DNA of 64,000 nucleotides from a virus, in IMG/VR virus record IMGVR_UViG_3300042317_000235, positions 1 through 64,000 of that record. The stretch is one strand, 5' to 3'. Numbering within the stretch: position 1 is the first letter of the stretch; every line of letters starts with the position of its first letter. Below, one piece after another: positions 7,680 to 60,894 of the stretch. Below the pieces are notes generated by a model. That model was not told the DNA's origin. It searched no databases and saw only the letters and a list, made by a program, of their open reading frames with translations. The position numbers and the translations under genes are program-made.

Positions 7680-8082
7680 GGTTCTTAATCTCTCTGTTGA
7701 TACTAATAATAAGTGCTTGTGCTTCAAGCAACTCGGTTGGGATTTCGGCTTTCTTCAAGCCTGTTAATTTGTATATACTGTGTCTTGCAGAGTTTAACGG
7801 GTCGATATAATATACTTTATCCCACGCTTTTCTTTTCTCACGATTAGCTTCACGGTATGCTTTGTTATACGCTTTTATTTTCTCACGATTAGCTTCACGG
7901 TATGCTTTATCCCCCGCATTTATTTTCTCACGATTAGCTTCGTAGTATGCTTTATCCCACGCTTTTCTTTTCTCACGATTAGCTTCATAGTATGCTTTAT
8001 CCCACGCTTTTCTTTTCTCACGATTAGCTTCATAGTATGCTTTGTTATACGCTTTTAATTTCTCTGGGTCTTTGTATGGCAT
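7657..8082 (-). CDS. repeat protein with five 15-residue EANREK repeats
   Basis: 141 residues: MPYKDPEKLKAYNK, then five tandem copies of a 15-residue unit of the type AYYEANREKRKAWDK, then a helical domain (NSARHSIYKLTGLKKAEIPT). Such YxxANREK repeats are found before the HNH domain in phage homing endonucleases, but no HNH motif follows here, so it may be a remnant or a DNA-binding protein of its own. The repeats are basic and helical. AGGAGG lies 5 bp before the ATG. Confidence 0.6.
   Translation of the reverse strand: MPYKDPEKLKAYNKAYYEANREKRKAWDKAYYEANREKRKAWDKAYYEANREKINAGDKAYREANREKIKAYNKAYREANREKRKAWDKVYYIDPLNSARHSIYKLTGLKKAEIPTELLEAQALIISINREIKNHEKLHRA
7820..8068 (-). repeat. 45-bp coding tandem repeats
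   Basis: Approximate limits of five 45-bp units that encode AY(Y/R)EANREK plus six variable residues. The two middle units are nearly identical at DNA level, which points to recent unequal recombination or slippage. Confidence 0.7.
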
Positions 8083-9522: not shown

Positions 9523-10692
9523 TTAATCCAACCTAATCACACTGCCAAACGGTGGCACGACATTACTACCACCAACAATAACCCATATCACAGGGTACGT
9601 AGGATGTTCTTTGGGGAAGTCCGTGTAACCGTCAGTGATAATAATCGTACACTCTGGCTTGAGCTTGTTGTCATCTATATACTGCATCACACAGGCTACG
9701 TCTGTACCACCACCGCCAGCAGGTTTAGTAGAGTTAACTAGACCCGCGTAATTATCCTCGCGATACTGTTCATGAGATGCAACATCTGTATCCCAGTAGA
9801 GAAGGTCAACCTTCTCTGGAGTTGTATTGTCGCATATAGCCACTACCTCACTCAAGGCTTTGGTAATCGCCTCGTCATCAATAGAACCCGATGTATCAAT
9901 CGCAACGCACATAGACCCTACTGTCTCACTTATCTGACTGGGCATATAGATATCTTGAGAGAGCCACCGTCTGCTTGGTTTTGCCCATGTGCTGTCACCT
10001 TTGCCAGCGCAAGTTGATGATACGAACTCACGCAGTTGGTCACGCCAGTCTACTTTGGAAGCCATGATAGTCTCGAAGCTACGGTCTACATCACCGTTTT
10101 GTTTGCCAGCTAAAAGTGCGCCAGTGCGTACTGCGCCATCGATTTCTTTTCGCACCTGTTCCTTCTCTTCGGGCGACAGCGAGGCGGCATCTTGCCACTG
10201 ATGTTCATCTAATTCTTCAGGCAGTTTACCACCCCCCTTACTGGCACGGCTTTGCTTATCACCATACTGCTCCTTGAGTTTAGCGTATACCTCTGCGGTA
10301 TTCATACCACGATACTGCTCATCGATACACCCACACTCGGGCAACTTAATAAAGCTACCGCCCCTATCAATGTCTAGTATCTCGAGGTTAATCACAAAGT
10401 CGCACGCTATACCTGCAAGCTGGGCATCCTCCTCGAATAGTTTCTGCCATATGAATAAGTGCTGATAGAGTTTATGTTTAGCCTCATGTAACACAAGACC
10501 GCGTATCTCTGGATCAGTCAAGCTGTCTACAAACTCACGCCCATAAAATACATCACGCCCATTGGTAGCGGCTGTGTCTATGTCACCTCTGATTTCTGTC
10601 TTACCTACCATGATAATACCTGAGTAGGCTAAGGTGCGGGTGTCTTGCATCAACGCAATGTGCGCCTTGAGTATGCGGTCTTCTGCTTTCAT
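9523..10692 (-). CDS. DUF2201-type metallopeptidase-like plus VWA domain protein
   Basis: 389 residues. The N-terminal half has LVLHEAKHKLYQHL, a canonical HExxH zinc site (DUF2201_N, putative metallopeptidase). The C-terminal half is a von Willebrand A domain with the full metal site: CVAIDTSGSID (DxSxS), GGGGTDVACV (T) and TIIITDGYTDF (D). It follows a MoxR-type AAA+ gene by 9 bp; such AAA+/VWA pairs (compare CobS/CobT, MoxR/CoxE) act together in remodelling or metal insertion. The substrate in a phage is unknown. ATG has GGAG upstream. Confidence 0.88.
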   Translation of the reverse strand: MKAEDRILKAHIALMQDTRTLAYSGIIMVGKTEIRGDIDTAATNGRDVFYGREFVDSLTDPEIRGLVLHEAKHKLYQHLFIWQKLFEEDAQLAGIACDFVINLEILDIDRGGSFIKLPECGCIDEQYRGMNTAEVYAKLKEQYGDKQSRASKGGGKLPEELDEHQWQDAASLSPEEKEQVRKEIDGAVRTGALLAGKQNGDVDRSFETIMASKVDWRDQLREFVSSTCAGKGDSTWAKPSRRWLSQDIYMPSQISETVGSMCVAIDTSGSIDDEAITKALSEVVAICDNTTPEKVDLLYWDTDVASHEQYREDNYAGLVNSTKPAGGGGTDVACVMQYIDDNKLKPECTIIITDGYTDFPKEHPTYPVIWVIVGGSNVVPPFGSVIRLD

Positions 10693-10701
10693 GTTGCTCT
10701 C

Positions 10702-11772
10702 CTAGAATAAGTAGCCGTTAGTTACACACCATGAGGTGAATGATTTGTTGCGTACTGCAACGTCACGCTTGGGCGACTTACCGCTCATAATGGACATAGC
10801 AAACATAGCTTGTGCCTCACGGGTCATACGACCTAAGTACGTCATCCACGCATCGAACGTGTCAACCTCTACGTTATGCAAAGCCTTAGAGACTATAAGA
10901 CAGACTGATGCACCATTGCTGGGTACTTGCGTAGTAGTTGGCTCAGATACAATCTCACGCCATGCGGGCATGGTGTTATCCAGTTTTAATATGTTCATCA
11001 TATCCATAGTCGCACGCTCACCAATCACACCAATAAGCGCATGATATAGCACGTCTTCGGGTAGGTGACGGCAACGCTTGAGGATATTACTTGCCGCTTC
11101 CATACTGCGTGGTGTAACGAACGCCGCTCGTGGTACTCGTGGGTCGTAGATGTACTCGTTCTGAGTTGGTTTCTCGTAGTCTTCAAACGATGCGAACATA
11201 GCAGGGTACTCGTTAGCTGTCGCAATAACCACTGGGTCAACACCTGCACCCATAGCAAAGCCAAGACGCCACTCTTCTGAGGTTGGTTTGCGTACCTTAA
11301 CCACGTCCACACGGTTTCTTGCATGAGGTGGCAGATTATCACCGATACCCTCTGCTGATAGGTTGGTTGTTGCAAACACGATGCTACCCTCTGGCAAACT
11401 ATGTGTGCCGAGCTTACGCTCGAGCATTAACCGCAAGCAAGCATTCATCACAGACTTACTAGCCTTGCCTATCTCGTCAAGCATAATAATCACAGGCTTA
11501 TTGAGGTGAAAGCCAAACTCCTCGTTGGGTATGAATGAGCAGACAGACGTACCGTCTAGCTGACGCACCTGTGGTACAAGGAAGTCACCAACATCCTTAG
11601 TCGTGATGTCTACATAGCACACCACATGGTCGGGGTGCTGTTGCTGTAGTGATTTGAGAATAGACGACTTGCCTATCCCCATCTCGCCCTGTACTAACAC
11701 TGTGGTTGTGTCGCCGATTGCATTGATAAGGTCGATTGCGTTTTGCATGGTGATTGAGCTGTACGGTTTCAT
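10702..11772 (-). CDS. MoxR-family AAA+ ATPase
   Basis: 356 residues. Walker A is GEMGIGKSS, Walker B VIIMLDEIG, sensor 1 IVFATTNLS, and an arginine-rich segment follows (PPHARNRVDVV). This is the MoxR/CobS branch of AAA+ ATPases, chaperone-like machines that work with a VWA partner. That partner is encoded immediately downstream. The ATG overlaps the upstream stop (ATGA), so this gene, its upstream neighbour and the VWA gene are one operon. Role in infection unknown; DNA or protein-complex remodelling are candidates. Confidence 0.9.
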   Translation of the reverse strand: MKPYSSITMQNAIDLINAIGDTTTVLVQGEMGIGKSSILKSLQQQHPDHVVCYVDITTKDVGDFLVPQVRQLDGTSVCSFIPNEEFGFHLNKPVIIMLDEIGKASKSVMNACLRLMLERKLGTHSLPEGSIVFATTNLSAEGIGDNLPPHARNRVDVVKVRKPTSEEWRLGFAMGAGVDPVVIATANEYPAMFASFEDYEKPTQNEYIYDPRVPRAAFVTPRSMEAASNILKRCRHLPEDVLYHALIGVIGERATMDMMNILKLDNTMPAWREIVSEPTTTQVPSNGASVCLIVSKALHNVEVDTFDAWMTYLGRMTREAQAMFAMSIMSGKSPKRDVAVRNKSFTSWCVTNGYLF

Positions 11773-12173: not shown

Positions 12174-13025
12174 CTAGTCGTTCCACTTGTCGAGCATAGC
12201 ATCGACATCTTTTTTAATTTGTGAGCGCATGAAGTCGCTCTGTTTAATATCTTTTGTATCGATACCCATGATGGTATCCTCAAGACGCTGGCGCATATCC
12301 TCCAGTTGCGTGTCATTGTTTATATTGAGGTGGCGCAGTAACTCGCACAGCTCGGACGCTGATGAATACACGCTGTCGTATATCTTGCCCTTTGTACCAT
12401 CATCGTTAGTGCGCAAACCAAAGCTCAGTTGAGTGAGGCTGTCATATAACCTATCCCACGCATCACGGTTTACTTTCTGTATGTTGTACTCATACATCTC
12501 GTCATACTGACGACGTAACTCAGCTACCTCCTCTGATTGAATGTCTACACGGAAGTCACCTGACTCTGGCACAGGAGAGAACCCTATGCTAAAGCTAAAC
12601 TTACTGCGGACTTTGTCTTCGTCTGGGTACTCGTCACGGTCAAACAGCTTACCTAACTGAAACGCGGCGGCACTAATCTTTAAGGTGTACTGAGGCAAGA
12701 ACATATCGACCTCATCCCAAAAGCGTTTCTCGTAATCACCCATAGCCCGCTTGTACTCTAGGAAGTAAGCCGTAGTCAGCAGACGCTGACCGTTATCATT
12801 CCAAGGGGATGTGTACCTTGCATGGTAAGTGCGAGCCTCACTCGCAATTTTCTGTATCTTGGTTAGGCTGTCGTCGCCTGCCAGCAGGTTCTTGTGATAG
12901 TTACCTGCCTTTGTCATGGTTGAGTTCGCTGTGTCCACATCCTGTGATACTTTCTTGTCTAGTTTTCTAGCTGTCCAGATTGAGATGTTTAAAGTGCAGA
13001 GCATTGCACTGTTTGAGATTGCCAT
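12174..13025 (-). CDS. DUF3150-like hypothetical protein
   Basis: 283 residues: a N-terminal part SIWTARKLDKKVSQDV, a long helical middle (RLLTTAYFLEYKRAMGDYEK) and a helical C-terminus with an acidic end. The architecture and its position two genes upstream of the MoxR ATPase match DUF3150 proteins, which often travel with phage AAA+/VWA pairs. Function unknown. Its leader contains palindrome copy 1, whose right end is about 15 bp from the ATG. Confidence 0.6.
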   Translation of the reverse strand: MAISNSAMLCTLNISIWTARKLDKKVSQDVDTANSTMTKAGNYHKNLLAGDDSLTKIQKIASEARTYHARYTSPWNDNGQRLLTTAYFLEYKRAMGDYEKRFWDEVDMFLPQYTLKISAAAFQLGKLFDRDEYPDEDKVRSKFSFSIGFSPVPESGDFRVDIQSEEVAELRRQYDEMYEYNIQKVNRDAWDRLYDSLTQLSFGLRTNDDGTKGKIYDSVYSSASELCELLRHLNINNDTQLEDMRQRLEDTIMGIDTKDIKQSDFMRSQIKKDVDAMLDKWND

Positions 13026-13040
13026 GATGTTCTCCTGTTT

Positions 13041-13063
13041 GATTCCGTACTTGTGTACGGATT
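13041..13063. repeat. palindromic element copy 1
   Basis: ATTCCGTACTTGTGTACGGATT: arms CCGTAC and GTACGG with a short centre. It starts right at the stop of the gp88-like gene and ends before the GGAG of the next gene, so the mRNA would form a hairpin with an ACAA loop. Confidence 0.85.
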
Positions 13064-14027: not shown

Positions 14028-14240
14028 TTACCAGTTTTCTATGATGGCACTTACTGTTTTTCTAAATTTGCCGTAATCCTCAAATGTGTGGAGTTTCATA
14101 GCGTCGTAGTAGTCAATCAATACAAACGTATTTTCAAGGTAATAGAACCTAATCTTTTTATCGACATCTGGTTTATTTGCCATTATGTAATCGAACTTGA
14201 CGCCTTGCATCAGTTGTTTTTTGTTTATTCTAATTTTCAT
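14028..14240 (-). CDS. small hypothetical protein
   Basis: 70 residues, basic and rich in K, Y and I (MKIRINKKQLMQGVKFDYIM, then KKIRFYYLENTFVLIDYYDA). AGGAGATACAC lies directly before ATG 14238-14240. Palindrome copy 2 lies 22 bp upstream of the start, so the leader RNA can fold. Function unknown. Confidence 0.5.
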   Translation of the reverse strand: MKIRINKKQLMQGVKFDYIMANKPDVDKKIRFYYLENTFVLIDYYDAMKLHTFEDYGKFRKTVSAIIENW

Positions 14241-14262: not shown

Positions 14263-14285
14263 GATTCCGTACTTGTGTACGGATT
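14263..14285. repeat. palindromic element copy 2
   Basis: The 23 bp are identical to copy 1, including the TTGT centre. It lies in a 145-bp gap in front of the 14028-14240 gene. The rest of that gap holds no gene that I can support. Confidence 0.85.
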
Positions 14286-14772: not shown

Positions 14773-16020
14773 TTATCTAGGAACAGTTATCATGATGTTA
14801 CCGTTGCGTAGTGTTTGCTTGTGTCCTTTTATTCTCTTTAACTGTATGTTAAATACGGTGACTGCATCCTCCCATGTGTGGCACACGGTGACTTTATTCC
14901 CACGCCCCATGCCATGCACCGTGTAGGTGCTACCTTCTATGCGTATGTTTCGCTCTGTGCTCACCGTCCAGCGTCTTGGTTTTGATTCCGTACTTGTGCA
15001 CGGAATAGGGTTCTTGGTTACCTGTGTTGGTATTCTTGTTAGTGTTGCCGAGTTCACTGGCTCGGGTTTTATATTCTCCCATTTATAGTTGAGTGGGTTT
15101 GCGTCCCTGCAGGGGTATGCACAGACTTTATTTGTCTTTGGGCTTATGTTGCGTATGCCGTAAGGTTCGCACAGGACTTCTTCTTGTATGCGCTGGATGT
15201 TATCTAGTCCGCCCGTGTAATCAAACCGCCCTCCTGCGCCCATGTAGAGGTAGGCAATGGCTTGTGGACTGTATGTCGTACTATTTAGGCTTACACGCGG
15301 GTGCGTCACGCGCTCTCTAATATAATAGGCTTTTCTAATGGTTGCATGGATGGATGTCTTGTCTGGGTTGCGCTCTAAGTAGTAGCGTTTGATGCACTGT
15401 GCTCTTAAATCGTCGTCTAATAGGGCATAGTCGTCCGTTGTGTACGTATGCCACCCTTTGTGTAGAGGGGGGTTGTTCTTGGCTCTTAGCGGCAATCTAT
15501 TGAGGTCTAGGCGTTGTGCTCTAGGTTTTTTAGGTTTTGCATGGGTGTAGATCGCGCTTTTGTCTGCACGAGAGCCTTCATTGTAGGTTATTTCGCCCGT
15601 ATCGGGGTCATAGGCGAGCTTTAGGTGTAGGTATGCCTGTGTTAGTGGTTCTCGCGGCTTGGCGTCTTTTACGGGTGCGTGTGCCTGCATTAAAGCATCT
15701 AGGGTTTTTTTAACAAAGGGTTTTACTATGGTGATAGTCCCTAATGTTTTCTTATGCTCTACCTCGTACTCGTAGTGAGTCATCGCATACAACTCGTCGT
15801 AGACTGCATTGGTTTTATCTCGAAGAGCTACCTGCGCAAGGTGGGTTTTTTCTTTCTCCGCTCGGCGGATTTCTAATTTGTTGGGGGTATTGTTTATTGC
15901 ACGAGAGTATGCTAGGAAGTCTTTGTGGTAGAGGCGGTTGAGTCGGTTGGTTTCGAGTAGGGCAATTCTCATGGTTGCATAGGGTATTTTTGCTTGTTTT
16001 GCTAGGTCTGTTGTTTTCAT
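14773..16020 (-). CDS. HTH and HNH-like DNA-binding protein
   Basis: 415 residues. The N-terminus (TTDLAKQAKIPYATMRIALL) resembles a helix-turn-helix. LAYDPDTGEITY near residue 134 is the start pattern of many phage HNH endonucleases, and DANPLNYKWENIK near residue 310 resembles their NRWENL part, but the catalytic histidines are not evident. A C-terminal strand-helix (GNKVTVCHTWEDAVTVFNIQ) is like an AP2-type DNA-binding element. It may be an endonuclease that has lost activity and become a regulator. Palindrome copy 3 lies in its coding sequence. No good ribosome site was seen. Confidence 0.5.
   Translation of the reverse strand: MKTTDLAKQAKIPYATMRIALLETNRLNRLYHKDFLAYSRAINNTPNKLEIRRAEKEKTHLAQVALRDKTNAVYDELYAMTHYEYEVEHKKTLGTITIVKPFVKKTLDALMQAHAPVKDAKPREPLTQAYLHLKLAYDPDTGEITYNEGSRADKSAIYTHAKPKKPRAQRLDLNRLPLRAKNNPPLHKGWHTYTTDDYALLDDDLRAQCIKRYYLERNPDKTSIHATIRKAYYIRERVTHPRVSLNSTTYSPQAIAYLYMGAGGRFDYTGGLDNIQRIQEEVLCEPYGIRNISPKTNKVCAYPCRDANPLNYKWENIKPEPVNSATLTRIPTQVTKNPIPCTSTESKPRRWTVSTERNIRIEGSTYTVHGMGRGNKVTVCHTWEDAVTVFNIQLKRIKGHKQTLRNGNIMITVPR
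14984..15006. repeat. palindromic element copy 3, inside a coding sequence
   Basis: GATTCCGTACTTGTGCACGG followed by AAT. It encodes IPCTSTES near residue 340 of the 415-residue protein and keeps the frame. Confidence 0.8.
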
Positions 16021-16563
16021 GGGATTTTTGTTGTTTTTTTGGTAAAAAGGGAGGATTTAGGGTCATTTTACACTCCGAATTCCCGAAACGCAAGGGGGTA
16101 AGTAATTTACGGGAGTTGATTAAGTTTTTTTAGCGTATATAGGACGCGGCGTGTAGAAGAAAGTGTTATGTGCAGTTATATTTATTTGAAATTTTGAGAG
16201 AGAGCGAGAGGAGGCGAAAATATTTTTATAATTACAACCATACAACGTATATCACAGGGACAAAAATACACGAAAATATATATATTTTTTTCTTATATAT
16301 ATTATTAAATAAATAGTAGTAGTAGTAGTAGTAAAGACTAGAACCCTTGCATTTTAGGTGCACGAAAAAACTTTTCCTAGAAACGGACTTTGCAAAATTT
16401 CTGCAGAACGGGAATTCGAATCGACGTAAACTAGGTGTAACTTTTAACTTTTTTAAAGTAAGTTTGGTAAACTAAGCGTAATTGTAACACAAATGTCATC
16501 TCGCACAGAAAAGAGCATAATACAGAAGAACCGAAGTTAACGCAGGTAAACCAAAATCAATCG

Positions 16564-16597
16564 CGTAGCTCACCGTCTTATTCGGAAACAGGTATCA
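16564..16597. repeat. 34-bp direct repeat, copy 1
   Basis: Begins CGTAGCTCACCGTCTTA and ends GGAAACAGGTATCA. The only difference from copy 2 is a short stretch in the middle (TTC instead of AAAC). Confidence 0.8.
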
Positions 16598-16630
16598 TTC
16601 TTAGCACCCACGCGCGACCAAAATCGCCCA

Positions 16631-16664
16631 CGTAGCTCACCGTCTTAAACGGAAACAGGTATCA
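16631..16664. repeat. 34-bp direct repeat, copy 2
   Basis: 67 bp (start to start) after copy 1, in the same orientation. The spacing is between six and seven helical turns, so proteins bound to both would lie on similar faces. Confidence 0.8.
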
Positions 16665-16724
16665 AAATGACCGCATTTTGTGCGGCGGGTGTTAAATTAT
16701 TTTATGTATTTACTAAATTTTAGG

Positions 16725-16749
16725 CAAAAAAATACCGTCTTTCGACGGT
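16725..16749 (-). terminator. minus-strand terminator 2, downstream of the 16830 gene
   Basis: On the minus strand ACCGTC-GAAA-GACGGT is followed by a T-tract (seven to eight T). The GAAA tetraloop matches that of terminator 1. It is preceded by the same CTAAATTTTAGGC motif as terminator 1. Confidence 0.85.
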
Positions 16750-16751
16750 TT

Positions 16752-16775
16752 GATTCCGTGCACGTGCACGGAATT
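16752..16775. repeat. palindromic element copy 4
   Basis: ATTCCGTGCACGTGCACGGAAT, a perfect palindrome with the CACGTG centre, between two terminators. Confidence 0.85.
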
Positions 16776-16791: not shown

Positions 16792-16813
16792 AAAAAAGCC
16801 CGCTTTCGCGGGC
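16792..16813 (-). terminator. minus-strand terminator 1, downstream of the 16830 gene
   Basis: On the minus strand GCCCGC-GAAA-GCGGGC followed by TTTTTT: a textbook rho-independent terminator 17 bp after the stop of the coiled-coil gene. Confidence 0.92.
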
Positions 16814-16829
16814 TTCATGTAGCATTGTG

Positions 16830-17783: not shown

Positions 17784-17833
17784 GATGATATTCCTATATA
17801 AAGTAAATTAAAGATAATTGATACTGCAGGCAT

Positions 17834-17862
17834 ATTAGACAACAAAATGAAACCTATGTCAA
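17834..17862 (-). promoter_or_regulatory. sigma70-type promoter of the leftward coiled-coil gene
   Basis: Minus strand: TTGACA (17857-17862), 17 bp, TCTAAT (17834-17839). The -35 is perfect and the -10 has one mismatch. Transcription should start about 45 bp before ATG 17781-17783. Confidence 0.85.
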
Positions 17863-17933
17863 CTATATAAATTTAATAATGTTATAAAACAATAGGATAC
17901 GGTTACCAGTTAACCGCAGTCAATGCGCATTCT

Positions 17934-17956
17934 ATTCCGTACACGTGTACGGAATT
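17934..17956. repeat. palindromic element copy 5
   Basis: TTCCGTACACGTGTACGGAA with an A/T pair at each end: a perfect 22-bp palindrome, about 70 bp upstream of the leftward promoter. Confidence 0.88.
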
Positions 17957-18010
17957 GGATAATAACTTGCTTACCTGATATCACGTATAGTTTATAGGGT
18001 TATTATGTAT

Positions 18011-18093
18011 ATGTATGCTATATGTATGCTATATGTATGCTATATGTATGCTATATGTATGCTATATGTATGCTATATGTATGCTATATGTAT
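18011..18093. repeat. array of 11-bp direct repeats (iteron-like)
   Basis: Seven identical copies of ATGTATGCTAT in a row, followed by ATGTAT. The unit is close to one turn of the helix, so the same face is offered again and again, as in iteron origins and operator arrays. Confidence 0.95.
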
Positions 18094-18131
18094 AAAACAC
18101 GGTAAAAACATCATGCTATATATCAAAACAT

Positions 18132-18140
18132 TGTGTATAA
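18132..18140 (-). promoter_or_regulatory. DnaA-box consensus match
   Basis: TGTGTATAA is the reverse complement of TTATACACA, a full match to TTATNCACA. It also overlaps TATAAT (18136-18141), a possible -10 for the late genes, but no good -35 was found at the right distance. Confidence 0.45.
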
Positions 18141-18398
18141 TCAGGGCATAGCGACCCCCACCCCCCAAAATAATATTTAGGAGTCCCCTATTTTTCTATA
18201 CATACTATTCCACACGTTGTAACCCCACTTCTACCAAATCACCCTAATCCTACATAACCCACTAACAACCTACGTAAACTAATCCTCACACAAAACCCCC
18301 CGTCACTTATATAAACGCCCATCAAAAAAATTTTTCACAAAAAATTTACAAAGTAGGGTAAGCTATGTGCTCATGTATGTTTATAACAAAGAAAGAAT

Positions 18399-19034
18399 AT
18401 GCAGATAGAAGACGAATATGATGATTTCGTGGATTTTGATGAGGTCGAGCCCTTTGATTTTTCCACTGTATGCGGACATACCGCCCCTAGTGAGGCTACA
18501 AAACGAAGACTCAACGCAAAAGAAGCCTTCAAAGACCCCACATTCCTAGATGCACAGGGGATGCCCCCTTTGCCAGAACCGCAATTAACGTATGCAGAAA
18601 AAAATGAAGCCCTAAATATATTTTTAGAACAACCTGATGCACCTCCTGCACCTACCACACCCGGTGCGGCGAAAGCGCTCGACAAACTTTTAAAGCGGTT
18701 TGACTATACATTGGCAAATTCTACAAACAAGATGCGTCAATATGTGCTTTTTAAACTGTTTGAACTTGCCGAAAACGAAGACCCAAAACTTCAAATTAAG
18801 GCGGTTGAAATGCTAGGTAAGGTAACTGAAATTGGGCTCTTTACGACAAAAGTAGAGGTAGCTGCTGCAGATAAACCGACAGGTGACCTAGAGTCTGAGC
18901 TTAATGAGTTGATGTCAACGTACTCTATTGGGGGTGAACTTGGCTCAATTGATGTGCAGTACGAGCAGATTTCCGATGAAGAGCTTAAAGGTGATGCTAA
19001 AGAAGAGGAATTTGAGGAGGTAGAAGATGAGTAA
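18399..19034 (+). CDS. terminase small subunit
   Basis: 211 residues with an acidic N-terminus (EDEYDDFVDFDEVEPFDF) and a helical core (NKMRQYVLFKLFELAENEDP, KLQIKAVEMLGKVTEIGLFT). The small subunit recognises the phage packaging site and activates the large subunit. The pattern KLQIKAVEMLGK followed by TEIGLF and an acidic C-terminus is typical of podovirus small terminases. It overlaps the large subunit by 8 bp. The ribosome site is weak (AAGAAAG). Confidence 0.75.
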   Translation: MQIEDEYDDFVDFDEVEPFDFSTVCGHTAPSEATKRRLNAKEAFKDPTFLDAQGMPPLPEPQLTYAEKNEALNIFLEQPDAPPAPTTPGAAKALDKLLKRFDYTLANSTNKMRQYVLFKLFELAENEDPKLQIKAVEMLGKVTEIGLFTTKVEVAAADKPTGDLESELNELMSTYSIGGELGSIDVQYEQISDEELKGDAKEEEFEEVEDE

Positions 19035-20523
19035 GTTAGCCCATGTGCCTCCATCAGATAAAGAGCGCCTAGCAGAGCTTGTGCGTGAGCTTACCCGCAG
19101 AAAAGAAAGAGAAAATGCACAGACTGACTTCTTAGCGTTTGTGCAGTCGGTGTGGCCTGACTTTATTTATGGTCGGCATCATGCAAGGATAGCCTCAGAG
19201 TTTGAGCGCGTAGCCAGAGGCGAGTGCAGACGACTCATAATTAACTTAGGTCCACGTCATACAAAGAGTGAGTTCGGCTCTTACTTATTACCAGCATGGT
19301 TTCTTGGGCGGTTTCCTAATAAGAAAGTGATTCAGTGCTCGCATACTGCTGACCTTGCAGTAGGGTTTGGCCGTAAGGTGCGAAACTTAGTAGACTCTCC
19401 TGCGTATCAAGAAGTCTTCCCCAATGTAGGCCTGCGGTCTGACTCGAAGGCGGCGGGTAGATGGAACACCAGCGCAGGCGGTGACTATTTTGCTATTGGG
19501 GTAGGCGGTGCAGTAACCGGTAAAGGTGCTGACCTGCTGATAATTGACGACCCGCACAGTGAACAAGAAGCGGCGATAGCGGCGAGTAATCCTGAGATTT
19601 ACGATAAAGTGTACGAGTGGTACACGTCTGGTCCGCGTCAGCGTCTCCAGCCTGGCGGAGCCATAATCATAATTCAGACTCGTTGGTCAAAAAGAGACCT
19701 GACGGGACAAGTGCTTGAAGCGGCGATGCAGAGAGGCAACGAGAATTGGAGAGTGGTAGAGTTCCCTGCCATATTGCCATCGGGTAAACCGCTATGGCCT
19801 GAGTTCTGGAGTCTTGAGGAATTAGAAGCGACACGCGATGCAATTGACGTGTCCAAGTGGCAGGCGCAGTATCAGCAAGACCCGACCTCTGAAGAGGGAG
19901 CGATAGTTAAAAGAGAGTGGTGGCAGAAATGGACTAAAGAAGACCCGCCTCCAACAGACTTTATATTGATGACTTGGGATACGGCGTTTGAGAAATCACA
20001 GCGAGCTGACTATAGTGCGTGTACTGTGTGGGGCGTGTTCTACCAAGACAACGACAACGGCGTGATGCAGGCTAACATTATTATGCTTGATGCGAAACGT
20101 GGGCGGTATGAGTTCCCCGAACTTAAGCAAGTTGTGCTGGATGACTATAACTATTGGCAACCTGATAGTATAATCGTAGAAAAGAAAGCGTCTGGTGCGC
20201 CACTTATATATGAGTTACGTGCAATGGGTATTCCAGTGATGGAATTCACGCCTACAAGAGGTAACGATAAGATATCTAGGCTTAATGCGGTTGCAGACTT
20301 ATTTCACTCTGGTAGAGTATGGGCACCGAACACACGATTTGCGGACGAGGTTATCGAAGAGGTGGCATCATTTCCCGCAGGGCAACACGATGACTATGTG
20401 GATACCGTGTCAATGGCGATGGCGAGGTTTAGAAAAGGCGGGTTTATTTCAACTAATTTAGATGAACCAGAACCAGAGCGAGAGTTTAGAGGGCGGTCAT
20501 CACGGCGCAATGCATATTACTAA
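19027..20523 (+). CDS. terL: terminase large subunit
   Basis: 498 residues. Motor of DNA packaging: ATPase with Walker A LGPRHTKSE (residues 74-82) and Walker B LLIIDDP (about 170), followed by an RNase H-like nuclease with MTWDTAFEKSQRADYSACTV (first aspartate), VEKKASGAPLIYEL and a C-terminal GQHDDYVDTVSMAMARF. The PRHTKS Walker A is a deviant form common in this family. GAGGAGG lies upstream of the ATG, which is inside the end of the small subunit gene. Confidence 0.95.
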   Translation: MSKLAHVPPSDKERLAELVRELTRRKERENAQTDFLAFVQSVWPDFIYGRHHARIASEFERVARGECRRLIINLGPRHTKSEFGSYLLPAWFLGRFPNKKVIQCSHTADLAVGFGRKVRNLVDSPAYQEVFPNVGLRSDSKAAGRWNTSAGGDYFAIGVGGAVTGKGADLLIIDDPHSEQEAAIAASNPEIYDKVYEWYTSGPRQRLQPGGAIIIIQTRWSKRDLTGQVLEAAMQRGNENWRVVEFPAILPSGKPLWPEFWSLEELEATRDAIDVSKWQAQYQQDPTSEEGAIVKREWWQKWTKEDPPPTDFILMTWDTAFEKSQRADYSACTVWGVFYQDNDNGVMQANIIMLDAKRGRYEFPELKQVVLDDYNYWQPDSIIVEKKASGAPLIYELRAMGIPVMEFTPTRGNDKISRLNAVADLFHSGRVWAPNTRFADEVIEEVASFPAGQHDDYVDTVSMAMARFRKGGFISTNLDEPEPEREFRGRSSRRNAYY

Positions 20524-46196: not shown

Positions 46197-48212
46197 ATGG
46201 CGACACCAAAAATTACAACAGGGTATACACAACCCGGTACAAAACTGATTGTTAAACCTGATATAGCTAAGTACACAGATAAAAATGGTAAGGTTTCAGC
46301 TAAGTATCAAACAGATTTAACTAACTTCTATGCAAAAAGTACAGACCCTGAAGCGGTAAAGTATCGTACTGATGAGCTAACTAAAAAGTATGGAAGTCTA
46401 AAAGATGCGGACGGTAAAACGATATTCACGCCTACTTACATTAAAGCCCTTGCAGAGGGTATAGAACCTCCTGCGTCACTAGACAAAGCCGTTACTGATT
46501 GGGCTACGGCAAAAATGAAAGAAGCTACTAACTACGACTGGAATAACTTTTCTGGTGGTATAGGTTCAGTTGCTGCACAAAATCTATTAAGGTCCTTTGT
46601 TAAAGACCCTTCTCAAGTAGACACAGCACTTACCTTTAAATCATCTGGAGCGGACGTCACGCCTGAACAAAAGCAAGCTAATGCCGCAAACCTTGAAGCA
46701 AAAGTAGCTAAAGCTGAAAAAGATACGGCCACATTAGAAAACTATGACCCTAATGCAGGGGCATGGAACCCCTCTAAGAATACTCAAGCTACTCCTTATG
46801 GGGATGTGCTAAGTGGACTTATATCGGGGTATAAAAACCCTTATGCGTCAGATTATGTAAATCCTTTAGCCGCAGTAGAAAAACCTAACCTTACAAACAT
46901 ACAAACCCTCTTTAACAAAAACGCTATCCCACAAGACTTAGTGAGTTTGTTTAATTCTGCGGGTACTAACTATGCAGGGGGTACTCGTGCTAACCCTCTA
47001 GTAAGACCTACCTTACCAAATAATGGGCTTGTAAAATTAACTCAGCCTAGTGCAACTGAATCAGCTGAACAATTAGCTAAACCAGGTGCGCCTGATACAA
47101 CGAACACAACACTTCCTGTAGTTACTGATAAACCCCCTGTAGTTACGGATAAACCTCCTGTAGTTACGGATAAACCCCCTGTAGTTACTGATAAACCTCC
47201 TGTAGTTACGGATAAACCCCCTGTAGTTACGGATAAACCTCCTGTAGTTACGGATAAACCCCCTGTAGTTACGGATAAACCTCCTGTAGTTACTGATAAA
47301 CCTCCTGTATTTACGTCAGAACAAGGAACCTCTTTTTTAGAAGGGGCCGCAACTAATATGGGTTATCAAGGTGACTTGACAGATATAGCAGCTATGCAGA
47401 GTTATATAACCCCTGCTAATCAAGCGGCCAGACTAGCAGCAGAAAAGGCAGCTGCTGAGAAAAAAGTACTTGCAGATAAAGCGGCAGCAGAACAGGCAGG
47501 GCTAGTCGCATTAGCCAATCAACAAGCAGCAGATAAAGCAGCAAAAGAGAAAGCATCGGTGGTGCCATCTGTAAGTGCAGATTCTAATTTTACATCTATT
47601 AACCCTAATACGTATGGACCTCAACAAGTAACGCTTGACCCTAATACTGTAGCTTTATCTAACTCCCCATCGGTAATTGCGGCTAATCGAGCAACGGCGG
47701 CAAATCAAGCAACGGTTGTTCCTTATTCAACATCAGTAGTACCGTCTGTAAGCGCCGGAAATAATTTTACAGGGATGTCTAACAATATAGGACCTCAACA
47801 AGTAACGCTTAACCCTAATACTGTTGTGGATTCACCTAGTGGTATAAATGCTTTATCTGCACAAACAGTAGCTCTTCCACCGAGTGGACCTCAGCCTATT
47901 AACCCAAGTAACGGCGGACCTTCATCAGCTACTGTTGGACCTATCACCGCTGCTCAAAGAGACTTAGGGCCTTTAAATATATCTAACTTAGGTGCGGTAA
48001 TTGGCCCTCAAGCTATGAACTCCAATGCAGGGGGCGTTGCGTCTTTAGTTGGCCCACAAGTTACAGTACAGCCTCAAACACAACCAGCCGTAACACAGCA
48101 ACCTGCACCTATACTTACTACTGGGATAGTTAATGGGGTAGGAACAAACCCCGCACTCCGAGCTAAGGTATTAGCGGCACAAGCTGCGCAAGCATCTAAT
48201 ATGAAAGTATAA
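46197..48212 (+). CDS. internal virion protein with VVTDKPP repeats
   Basis: 671 residues. N-terminal half: helical domain (KAKSTDPEAVKYRTDELTKK pattern, then FSGGIGSVAAQNLLRSFVKD). In the middle nine copies of VVTDKPP (47118-47306), then low complexity rich in A, V, N, P with GPQQVTL(D/N)PNTV twice. No enzymatic motif seen. AGGAGAT before the ATG. Confidence 0.62.
   Translation: MATPKITTGYTQPGTKLIVKPDIAKYTDKNGKVSAKYQTDLTNFYAKSTDPEAVKYRTDELTKKYGSLKDADGKTIFTPTYIKALAEGIEPPASLDKAVTDWATAKMKEATNYDWNNFSGGIGSVAAQNLLRSFVKDPSQVDTALTFKSSGADVTPEQKQANAANLEAKVAKAEKDTATLENYDPNAGAWNPSKNTQATPYGDVLSGLISGYKNPYASDYVNPLAAVEKPNLTNIQTLFNKNAIPQDLVSLFNSAGTNYAGGTRANPLVRPTLPNNGLVKLTQPSATESAEQLAKPGAPDTTNTTLPVVTDKPPVVTDKPPVVTDKPPVVTDKPPVVTDKPPVVTDKPPVVTDKPPVVTDKPPVVTDKPPVFTSEQGTSFLEGAATNMGYQGDLTDIAAMQSYITPANQAARLAAEKAAAEKKVLADKAAAEQAGLVALANQQAADKAAKEKASVVPSVSADSNFTSINPNTYGPQQVTLDPNTVALSNSPSVIAANRATAANQATVVPYSTSVVPSVSAGNNFTGMSNNIGPQQVTLNPNTVVDSPSGINALSAQTVALPPSGPQPINPSNGGPSSATVGPITAAQRDLGPLNISNLGAVIGPQAMNSNAGGVASLVGPQVTVQPQTQPAVTQQPAPILTTGIVNGVGTNPALRAKVLAAQAAQASNMKV
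47118..47306 (+). repeat. nine 21-bp coding repeats (VVTDKPP)
   Basis: The unit alternates mostly between two forms that differ in the codon pair for PP (CCC CCT or CCT CCT) and by one base in the Thr codon. The alternation suggests that a 42-bp double unit has been copied. Confidence 0.93.
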
Positions 48213-54900: not shown

Positions 54901-56923
54901 TTATACACCTATGTATCGGGTTATGACGGACAAGACTACGTCAGATGAGCTTGAGGATACGTTTGATGATATGTCTAGCGGAAAGTATAAACCTAATATT
55001 TCGTCATTAATTAAAGGGATGAAGGAGCAGAAGTTCAAAGGCTCTAACCGCGAAGTATTTAATATGATGGATAACATGGAGCATTGGGTTCAGATAAGTT
55101 TCTCTCGTGCAGTACGGGCTAAAAAAGCCACAGATATGATAGACACCGCTAGACGCTATTTACCCGAAGGCGCAGTATCTCGTGTGCAGGGTACTAAGTC
55201 CAATAAAGACGATACTATAACGTGCTACTTTCATGGTAAAAAACAGTATTGGCGATTTGATGACCCGCTTATGGCAGTGGCTTTCAGAGGCGTACCCGCC
55301 GCACCGTTTGCCCTTAAGTCTATCGGTAAAGTCAGTGATATCATGCGTAGTGGTATCGTATTAACTCCTACGTTTACCTTGTCTCAGCTACCTCAAGATA
55401 TCTATGATGCCGCGTTCTCATCAGGGGTTAAGAATCCGTTTAAGTTATTTACCACGATGCTCTCAGAGTTTAAGACAACGGCGTTCTCTAAAGAAGATAC
55501 AGAAGCGCATAAAGCCTTGAAAGCTATTGGGGCTGTTGGGGCCAAAGATTCTCTTGGAGATTCCCGCACTCTGCATTTATACGACACCGTACATCATACA
55601 CACTTAAGTAAAGACAAGACTGCATGGCGTAAATTTAAGTCGTCTTTAGAAAAGTTTGCTATGGCCGGTGATAATGCTATTCGCCAAGCGGTATATGTGC
55701 GTACTATGAAGGAGCTTGAAGGCGACCCTCGTGCTAAGTCTATTGCCTATCAGAGAGCCTTCGATATTATTAACTTCCGTAGACGCGGTGCATCAGCTGT
55801 ATTAGAACAAGTACGTTCAGTTACGCCTTTTATGGGGGCTGCAATCCAAGCGCACCGTGCGGCGTACCAAGTAATAGCTGGGAGAGGTCTAGCATATCAG
55901 TCCAGTGCAGACAGTAAGAGTGCGCATATGCGCCTAGCAACAACATCAACCACTATGGCACTTATGGCGTTTGTCTATAATATGTTGTATGGCGGTTTGC
56001 TTGGAGATGATGAGGATAAAGATAAATTCAACAAAGAAGATACTCGCTTTAAAGATACGCACATCATGTTATTTGGTGGCAATTCGATAATATCTATCCC
56101 AATACGTCCAAGCGTATTCTCCCTACCGTATATTACGGGGAATCATTTATTCCAGTTAGGTATTGCTGAGTCTGAGAACCCACGTCAAACAGCAGATGCT
56201 TATAGAGAGGCTATTATATCGGCATTCGGTATTCCTATGCTTCCTCCTGTAGTTAGAGAAGGGTTTCAACAGGCAACTAACTATGACTTCTTTACGAACC
56301 GTCCTATTGTTCCAGAGCGTCTGCGTAAGAATGACCCGTCCTATCAGTACGATGACCGCACATCTGCTTTAGGTAAACTCGTGGGTGAGGCAACCTCAGG
56401 ACTTCCAAAAGAAGCTCAATTATCACCGATTAAGTTTGACCATTTTATGAAAGGTTGGTTTAGTGGCGTCGGTACGGCTATCCTGCAAACGTCTAATATG
56501 GTGGAGGTTGCAGCTTCTGATAACCCGTCTAAAGAACACACATTTAGAGAGATGGTTAGGATGTTCCCTAGCGTACCAGGTCTTGTTCCAGAGGAGTTTA
56601 AGGAGCAGAGTAAGTCTACTTACTATGATTTGCGTGAGGAGGTTGAAGGAGCGCACAGCACCTATAATCGATTGAAGAAAGAAGGAAAGCTTGAGGATGC
56701 ACGTAAGTACAAGGAAAGCAATAAAAGCCTCCTAAACGAATCTGTGCATCAGAAGATGAACCATTTAAAAACTGAGACTGATAAGATTCATGCAACTACT
56801 CGTAAGATTCTAAGTAACAAGAACTTATCTTCGGAGATAAAAGCGGAGAGAGTACGAGCTCTTGAAGCAAAGGAGCGTAGGCTCCTGTCACACGTCCAGA
56901 CTTTATACGATAAAGTTCACTAA
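51956..56923 (+). CDS. giant internal virion/polyvalent protein (LPD38-type C-terminus)
   Basis: 1655 residues, the largest gene. N-terminal 35 residues MPSYIVTAPDGKEYDVDAPE, GATEEQALDYF are a small module found at the start of many large phage proteins. Then a glycine/alanine-rich segment, an acidic linker, a domain around residue 612 with RVAMHEMGVHVGMRGM, a basic helical segment, and from about residue 1280 an LPD38-like part (INFRRRGASAVLEQVRS, PFMGAAIQAHRAAYQVIAGR), a hydrophobic stretch (TTMALMAFVYNMLYGGLLG) and a final coiled coil. Ejected with the DNA, probably with enzymatic functions; none is certain. Confidence 0.75.
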   Translation: MPSYIVTAPDGKEYDVDAPEGATEEQALDYFKSQWNAQPEELPSRTGADIAKDIGVTAGRSGISALQGVEGLADLLPGVNATKYLSEHGVDLGKAKEYLQENASPQQQQAYKNLTEAKGAGNILSAAIENPSAVAELVGENIIPMLTGGAEAKLLTKGVPALAKYAPSIGEGFAQMGQEAQKLTAEAPDKELSGKGELAALGSGALDAVIGRFAGKLVSKAGGTNVEDTLYGTLARDMGEEAARNPSVVKRVLVSTLGEGAEEALQSGQERIWDNYAKGATNLPTLLEGAVDDATLGSILGSVMGGGASAISGRGEQQAPEQPAVEPVQPTQPQGFSERDRKVDMEDGLELAGVNPDDHPELYAELSDPRHYESEETINALDERLKRYKSDEAPVEGEEDIDFASALPKEFDDTAWEAHLEKQREYARQTAPAAEQPQAENVAPEVTEPETEPTLNEEGGSFTINGQTATYTKTGELEAGVPLYTVEYPMPDNTVGKQTNVTMADITKMFKQGSQTTEQVAPETEQEVPEPISSVATSDAITEHNVESLQPHLTPEMKRLVESGKLTLHDTRDTLPDQTLPENVQGYTSPAGEVHLVANKLTPETLPRVAMHEMGVHVGMRGMVGDKVWGDLTSQALTTKGDAFDRARQAVPENTPEHLKGEETLAYLVENAPKLPVVKRAISAVKNWARTTFGAKLDLTEADAHHLAAKALRRESQTATRAPREETAFSVTPNSKLQEQVEKDRQGMRPATVKKKKGLKERFSKSGENLQRAADVYETQFFSHDAGFINTVRRTLEGMKLDPNLIGKLLDRVSQAQTVSDSSISAEGALCGSLEYDTNTDFFVAVDKADNLVTMRQIIDDAGTEYGWSEEETHKFFTSYMVAGRLKEKYEKARALKVEANKQTTPAAKAELFKQSREITDTLKLGMTEEECDAAREAYESVEGFVKAEKMWHKVRENTIDVLVKSGLYSKEKADAYMDAAFYTPMYRVMTDKTTSDELEDTFDDMSSGKYKPNISSLIKGMKEQKFKGSNREVFNMMDNMEHWVQISFSRAVRAKKATDMIDTARRYLPEGAVSRVQGTKSNKDDTITCYFHGKKQYWRFDDPLMAVAFRGVPAAPFALKSIGKVSDIMRSGIVLTPTFTLSQLPQDIYDAAFSSGVKNPFKLFTTMLSEFKTTAFSKEDTEAHKALKAIGAVGAKDSLGDSRTLHLYDTVHHTHLSKDKTAWRKFKSSLEKFAMAGDNAIRQAVYVRTMKELEGDPRAKSIAYQRAFDIINFRRRGASAVLEQVRSVTPFMGAAIQAHRAAYQVIAGRGLAYQSSADSKSAHMRLATTSTTMALMAFVYNMLYGGLLGDDEDKDKFNKEDTRFKDTHIMLFGGNSIISIPIRPSVFSLPYITGNHLFQLGIAESENPRQTADAYREAIISAFGIPMLPPVVREGFQQATNYDFFTNRPIVPERLRKNDPSYQYDDRTSALGKLVGEATSGLPKEAQLSPIKFDHFMKGWFSGVGTAILQTSNMVEVAASDNPSKEHTFREMVRMFPSVPGLVPEEFKEQSKSTYYDLREEVEGAHSTYNRLKKEGKLEDARKYKESNKSLLNESVHQKMNHLKTETDKIHATTRKILSNKNLSSEIKAERVRALEAKERRLLSHVQTLYDKVH

Positions 56924-59807: not shown

Positions 59808-60683
59808 TTAGTCAGCCCATTCAGCCAATGTACTTTCAAGGTCAGTTGGGTTAGCTACTGTAGCTGAGGGCTTCTTCTCTCTTACAACAGGTTCAGCAAC
59901 GGGAGCGTCTTTGAATAAGCCTTGCGGTGCTGGTTTAGGTGCAGGAGCTGGAGCCTCTTCTTTTTTAGCTGCTGAGAAGCTGGTAGTAATTGCTTGGATT
60001 GCTTCAAGTGAAGTAGCTTTATCCAATACAACCTCAATCTCTTTTTCATCTAATGGACGTACTGCACGGAATACCATCTTAGGTGTTGCAGAATCTGTAT
60101 CAAATCTAAGCTCGGTTACAACGTCAGTAACATTTAAGCCGTGTCCTGCTAGTTGCTTGGCATATTGGAAGAGAGGCATCTTACCGTTCTCACCTTTACC
60201 AAATAAAGAGGTTGCTGCAAGTAATAACTCGTATACGTCACCATGCATATCATTCTCAAGTAATACTGCGAGGCGGTGAGTATATCTGCAAGCTCTACCA
60301 GAACCTTGACCAGACCCCGCGATGTTCATAGGGCAGGTAGCACAGTTGTGGTTTTTAGGAGTTTCAATAGTTGGGCTAGGTACTTCACCATCCGTACTCC
60401 AGCAATCTGGAGAAGAGACTACACCTTCTTGGTATGTCCCTGCGTAATACTGACGTGATGTTTTAGGTGCCGCCGCCGCAATGATAATGTTCATTGCACG
60501 GTCTTCGTTCTTAGCAACCTCTTGACCACCAACAGTTAAGCGGAAGATGTTACCTCTTACTGAGATGCGGCGAGCATCAGATGAGCCGCCCATAAGAGCC
60601 TTAGTAGTTTCACTCAACTCCCTTTTTGCAAAGTGTGCTGGGATTGCTGCGCCTGTTGTAAATAAACTCATTTCGTTAGCCAT
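59808..60683 (-). CDS. candidate ssDNA-binding or recombination protein
   Basis: 291 residues from ATG 60681-60683, which follows AGGAG by 9 bp; an upstream start is less likely. A beta-rich core (RISVRGNIFRLTVGGQEVAK) with a cysteine site (NCATCPMNIAGSGQG, then ACRYTHR) is followed by a P/A-rich linker (APAPAPKPAPQG) and an acidic end (LESTLAEWAD). The acidic C-terminal tip is a hallmark of SSB proteins that contact polymerases and helicases. Its place in the replication cluster supports this, but no known SSB family was recognised. Confidence 0.45.
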   Translation of the reverse strand: MANEMSLFTTGAAIPAHFAKRELSETTKALMGGSSDARRISVRGNIFRLTVGGQEVAKNEDRAMNIIIAAAAPKTSRQYYAGTYQEGVVSSPDCWSTDGEVPSPTIETPKNHNCATCPMNIAGSGQGSGRACRYTHRLAVLLENDMHGDVYELLLAATSLFGKGENGKMPLFQYAKQLAGHGLNVTDVVTELRFDTDSATPKMVFRAVRPLDEKEIEVVLDKATSLEAIQAITTSFSAAKKEEAPAPAPKPAPQGLFKDAPVAEPVVREKKPSATVANPTDLESTLAEWAD

Positions 60684-60894
60684 GTGTATTTGCTCCTGAT
60701 AATTTAACAATAGTAGTTTTTCTAGAGATTAGTGCTTTTACTTCGTTAGCACTTAATAGGTATTCATTACCTCTGCGGTAAGAACTTAATTTACCTGTGT
60801 TTCGTAGTTTGGAAATATACTGCCTAGAGCAGTTTAGTATCCCCATTACTTGTTTAGTTGTCAAAAATACTTCTTCATCATCTTGCGGTTCCAT
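60676..60894 (-). CDS. excisionase/MerR-type HTH protein
   Basis: 72 residues: VFLTTKQVMGILNCSRQYIS is a MerR/Xis-like HTH, then KLRNTGKLSSYRRGNEYLLS and ANEVKALIS. Such small winged helix proteins are excisionases or regulators. No integrase is seen in the window, so it is more likely a regulator. Its end overlaps the start of the SSB-like gene. Confidence 0.75.
   Translation of the reverse strand: MEPQDDEEVFLTTKQVMGILNCSRQYISKLRNTGKLSSYRRGNEYLLSANEVKALISRKTTIVKLSGANTHG

Follow-up and report, generated by a model that had tools for sequence, protein, structure and literature searches.

In ParMRC partition systems the parC site consists of 11-bp repeats that adjoin a promoter. The KfrA operator of RA3 comprises five 9-bp repeats in a three plus two orientation (PMC7783346), whereas BldC sites are AT-rich direct repeats of variable number and either direction, to which a small HTH protein binds head-to-tail (PMC5859096), and iterons are used by phage satellites such as PLE (PMC7145576). 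The locus described here lies within a window of 64,000 nucleotides, i.e., the whole stretch of DNA that was analysed, which represents bases 1-64000 of a 64,492-bp IMG/VR record. As in parC, it has 11-bp repeats adjoining a promoter, but, unlike in ParMRC systems, neither ParM nor ParR genes were found among the proteins scanned. With the KfrA system of RA3 (PMC7783346) it shares several short direct repeats, for which mixed orientation is allowed and which are absent elsewhere in the replicon, as well as their position near a gene whose product resembles KfrA in layout. KfrA has a globular head followed by a long alpha-helical tail; in the phage protein, a head modelled as helical up to residue 150 precedes an alanine-rich middle that may form such a tail. 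It differs from RA3 in that the RA3 repeats are 9 bp long and overlap the kfrA promoter, whereas the repeats of the phage are 11 bp long and are located ~150 bp upstream of the likely early promoter, without overlap. Furthermore, the adjacent leftward gene (left gene) has neither a KfrA_N match nor a recognised HTH, and its assignment as KfrA by domain was rejected, as there was no Pfam match. The BldC sites are resembled by the AT-rich direct repeats, their variable number and their occurrence in either direction, and the phage encodes a 72-aa HTH_17 protein; however, the BldC spacing is 9 bp compared to 11 bp here, and the HTH_17 product is a candidate binder only.

A preliminary description of this DNA had reported seven identical 11-bp repeats in the only large divergent gap of the genome, and both observations proved to be correct. 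Seven exact copies of ATGTATGCTAT are present at 18011-18087 with partial copies flanking them on both sides, and the gap from 17784 to 18398 is the only divergent one of the genome, with leftward genes reaching to 17783 and rightward genes starting from 18399, whereas the gene directions converge at 56923/56952. The TRF call covers 18004-18093 with a period of 11, 8.3 copies, and 98% matches. A pair of the type ATATGTN4-5ATATGT was not found outside the array in three genomes, namely the 64,492-bp record and the related phages G001 and G002. Since the record ends overlap by 272 bp with 98.5% identity and the join is spanned by G001 (64,790 bp), the record corresponds to a circular map of ~64.2 kb. 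A single-strand structure of the array was rejected, as it was weaker than that of shuffled sequences. The Rfam search yielded no meaningful match, the tRNA search no tRNA, the phage DNA similarity search no match, and a literature search on phage tandem arrays with terminase found nothing. Elsewhere in the window, in-frame coding tandem repeats occur at 7807-8064 (45 bp x 5.7) and 47114-47315 (21 bp x 9.6). The features of the locus are compiled in Table 1.

Table 1. Positions of the repeat array, the palindrome copies, and the genes and elements discussed in the text.
Feature	Position	Strand	Remarks
Palindrome-family copy	13042..13063	.	just upstream of the start of 12174-13025
Palindrome-family copy	14264..14285	.	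upstream of 14028-14240
415-aa protein	14773..16020	-	weak match to HNH; low-confidence model with an AP2-like topology at the C-terminus
Palindrome-family copy	14985..15006	.	inside coding region 14773-16020
Second perfect palindrome copy	16753..16774	.	between two leftward terminator-like hairpins (16735-16748, 16796-16815) 3' of the left gene
Left gene (type A), 317 aa	16830..17783	-	helical N-domain, alanine-rich middle, conserved C-terminus; always with array
Likely early leftward sigma-70 promoter, TTGACA-17-TCTAAT	17834..17862	-	read by eye; counterparts in relatives
22-bp perfect palindrome ATTCCGTACACGTGTACGGAAT	17934..17955	.	adjoins the array; one of five family copies
Array	18009..18093	+	eight ATATGT sites, steps exactly 11 bp, spacer ATGCT
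DnaA-box-like TTATACACA	18132..18140	-	judged coincidental
C-rich conserved noncoding element, 64 bp	18154..18219	+	ACCCCCACCCCCC ... GGAGTCCC ... TATACATACTA
Putative terminase small subunit (TerS), 211 aa	18399..19034	+	family matches phrog_51 in 7/18 members
Terminase large subunit (TerL)	19027..20523	+	phrog_38, E 6e-112
72-aa HTH_17 protein	60676..60894	-	alternative candidate array binder

TerS, TerL, and the left gene served as queries to gather relatives, and 11 related phage contigs proved to have an array at this position, which thus occurs in 12 phages including this one. It lies between the palindrome adjoining the early leftward promoter and a conserved leader that precedes terS. 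The repeat units of these arrays differ and comprise ATATGTATGCT, ATATGTACGCT, ATATGTTAGGT, ATATGTTAGCT, ATATGTAGGCA, ATATGTTGGCT, ATATGTTGGTT, ATATGTATCGT, and ATATGTTCTAT, as well as one unit of 10 bp, ATATGTTCGT; the unit list is anchored on the core, and the altered core of L113 is reported apart. Adjacent sites are separated by 11 bp in 115 of 122 steps, by 10 bp in six, and by 20 bp in a single one, where the core is changed to GCATAT. When the nine 11-bp unit types are connected by a minimum spanning tree, 13 changes have to be inferred, each of them in the 5-bp spacer and none in ATATGT; the chance that any six adjacent positions are left unchanged by these changes is P ~3e-4. The direction of the array differs among the relatives, with both orientations occurring within L114, and the copy number ranges from 6 to 24. 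Two independent assemblies of the same virus (99.88% identity over 5,955 bp, no gaps) agree in array length and copy number. A scan for three phased ATATGT sites led to at least 100 contigs, mostly with single matches. Judged from these sequence comparisons, the array is real, conserved, and phased and likely consists of protein-binding sites, and the eight sites of the window probably represent a docking array for a DNA-binding protein. This supports the earlier suggestion that a period of about one helical turn would arrange a bound series of molecules on one face, as core and period persist despite changes in spacers, orientation, and copy number.

The array and a left gene of type A occur together in 12 of 12 phages, a type-A left gene was not found at any locus without an array in the relatives searched, and the five relatives in which the left gene is of type B lack an array. 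This linkage could reflect mere cassette inheritance. The type-A proteins have an alanine-rich middle of ~130 aa (18-45% Ala), and their head is modelled as four helices (residues 1-150, AlphaFold pLDDT 89). No recognised HTH and no Pfam match were found for the head, a Foldseek comparison with PDB and viral structures (BFVD) gave no match, and prophage relatives of the left gene were not detected in bacterial genomes. Because of these missing matches and a head pI that varies from 5.5 to 9.5, DNA binding is not evident. The head sequences diverge down to 32-43% identity while the core ATATGT is unchanged. As the head evolves fast and lacks a consistently basic character, binding may instead be due to another protein, for example the 72-aa HTH_17 product. 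The likely early promoter is missing from the automatic scan, because the scan accepts only -10 hexamers that have A as their second base.

The array, its conserved core, its phase, its free orientation, its copy-number variation, and the linkage to type A are visible in the sequences; the binding of a protein, the identity of this protein, and an effect on transcription are inferred. Binding sites with the ATATGT core that are one helical turn apart would align several copies of one DNA-binding protein on one face of the DNA, and the aligned proteins would build a nucleoprotein complex in a cooperative manner, with the early leftward promoter on one side and terS on the other. The main job of the array would be the control of the early/late divergent region, most likely as auto-control of the left gene, as it is the case for KfrA and its direct-repeat operator. 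This KfrA-like auto-control model is our best committed guess, to which we assign a probability of about 0.42. It might also be, although we regard this as speculative and rather improbable, that the early genes of this lytic phage include an exchangeable cassette that brings along a phased and orientation-free array, on which the alanine-rich coiled-coil product of the cassette would assemble a filament-like complex as a phage counterpart of KfrA and thereby organise the divergent control and packaging region.

In the preliminary description the repeats had been interpreted as an iteron-like array with a DnaA box. If the region were such a replication origin, a phage initiator would bind to the iterons and open the adjacent AT-rich DNA. 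As in the iteron origins of plasmids and phages, tandem direct repeats with a period of about one helical turn are present near AT-rich DNA, here beside a dyad and in the only divergent gap, the GC skew changes its sign in the same broad region, and the iterons of phage satellites provide a precedent. The proposed DnaA box does exist as a sequence, since TGTGTATAA follows 38 bp past the array, where it overlaps a TATAAT. However, TTATNCACA occurs twice in the whole record compared to 3.4 expected from a dinucleotide model, and the box near the array is one base off or missing in all relatives read; due to this chance-level count and the lack of conservation, it was rejected as a DnaA box. The cumulative GC-skew minimum is located at 12.76 kb and not at 18 kb, and in G001 it is found at the equivalent place, ~5 kb from the array in both genomes, whereby gene direction acts as a confounder: as the skew tracks gene direction over most of the genome, it says little for or against an origin here. 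Among the proteins scanned (Pfam, PHROGs), none matched a known Rep initiator family, and an initiator of an unrecognised family may exist. The relative G004, whose 53-kb record has a different left gene and is without some structural genes, lacks both an array in the gap and an ATATGT repeat anywhere in the record, yet its replication proteins are almost the same as those of this phage (DNA polymerase 94%, SNF2 helicase 96%, and primase-helicase 82% identity). The VWA/MoxR pair of G004 is 92-99% identical. Since G004 keeps the replication machinery without the array and an origin for this machinery should not vanish easily, the iteron reading is weakened, although another origin could have replaced the array in G004. 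Overall, we consider an iteron origin unlikely. The MoxR-like AAA ATPase and VWA (DUF2201) pair, which is phage-encoded at 9523-11772, is 91-99% conserved among close relatives.

The array could also be a product of slippage in a gap that tolerates tandem duplication, without any function. In more distant relatives, the arrays at or close to this place are unrelated (periods 7, 8, 14, 18, and 27) or missing, L129 and L130 are close relatives that differ by the presence or absence of an array, and the copy number itself extends over the range given above. Thus, arrays are readily gained at this place. The unrelated arrays of the farther relatives are built from ATCTGCT, ATCAGCT, TCACAGGC, CTCTTCTCGTACTG, two 18-bp types, and one 27-bp type. 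Such arrays are located upstream of terS in L118, L119, L128, L129, L021, L041, and L027, and several contigs end inside of them; a 9-bp array of L042 was left out of the noncoding arrays, because it lies inside the left-gene start. However, a neutral array should not retain a 6-bp core and an 11-bp step amid the turnover of spacer and orientation (P ~3e-4, as above), and the equal copy number in the two independent assemblies also argues against slippage, which we therefore hold to be quite improbable. In these comparisons, evidence of selection on core and phase is confined to this clade.

As a further alternative, the array could form a terminase recognition or cutting site together with the C-rich element, for which the short repeats beside the T7 ends offer a comparison. 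Such a function would fit their place directly upstream of terS/terL, the conservation of the C-rich element far beyond the array, and the occurrence of different tandem arrays at a similar place in farther relatives. However, no terminus is visible in the contigs, because they close into a circular map at different points, and the C-rich element occurs without an array in relatives whose TerS is 82-84% identical, so that the array itself is not needed. We consider this reading very improbable. The C-rich element, which is located between array and terS, gave 49 matches in related loci and none in 13-kb regions from five known phages whose TerL is 50-56% identical. It would be a better candidate than the array for an essential function at this place, perhaps packaging.

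The palindrome that adjoins the array belongs to a family of five copies across the early region (13.0-18.0 kb). A stretch of ~700 bp between leftward genes (16020-16750) is without a convincing gene and is followed by the two terminator-like hairpins that enclose the second perfect copy. The palindrome sequence is lineage-specific and common to the copies within each genome, whereas the positions are conserved: the class of G002 is TACCCGTAACSGTTACGGGTA at matching positions, that of G004 is GGATATACNGTATATCC with seven copies, and that of G008 is TAGTGACNNGTCACTA with four copies. One copy is present in the divergent gap in each genome (window record, G002, G004, and G008), and another is located ~20 bp before the start of the 12174-13025 equivalent in the window record (G000), G001, G002, and G004; a copy of G008 has the same spacing to a gene start, with the equivalence of this gene being unconfirmed. 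Because the same ATATGT core occurs with different palindrome classes, the factor that recognises the array is probably not the one that recognises the palindrome. For the latter, the 415-aa protein is a candidate, since its divergence follows the palindrome class, with 95-97% identity within the CCGTRC class and 71-76% or 60% outside, which is a correlation only. Its structure model was too poor for a structure search. The palindrome copy inside the coding sequence of this protein is of the G002 class in G002. Judged by their sequences, the palindromes resemble a system of operators or RNA hairpins whose sequence is exchanged as a set; as an operator system, it would be one in which the sequence switches and the positions stay.

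If a protein binds the array, these phages would present a natural series of arrays with independent variation of core, spacing, direction, and copy number. The rules of cooperative binding to direct repeats would then be readable from the sequence, and also testable, in a largely uncultured phage family.
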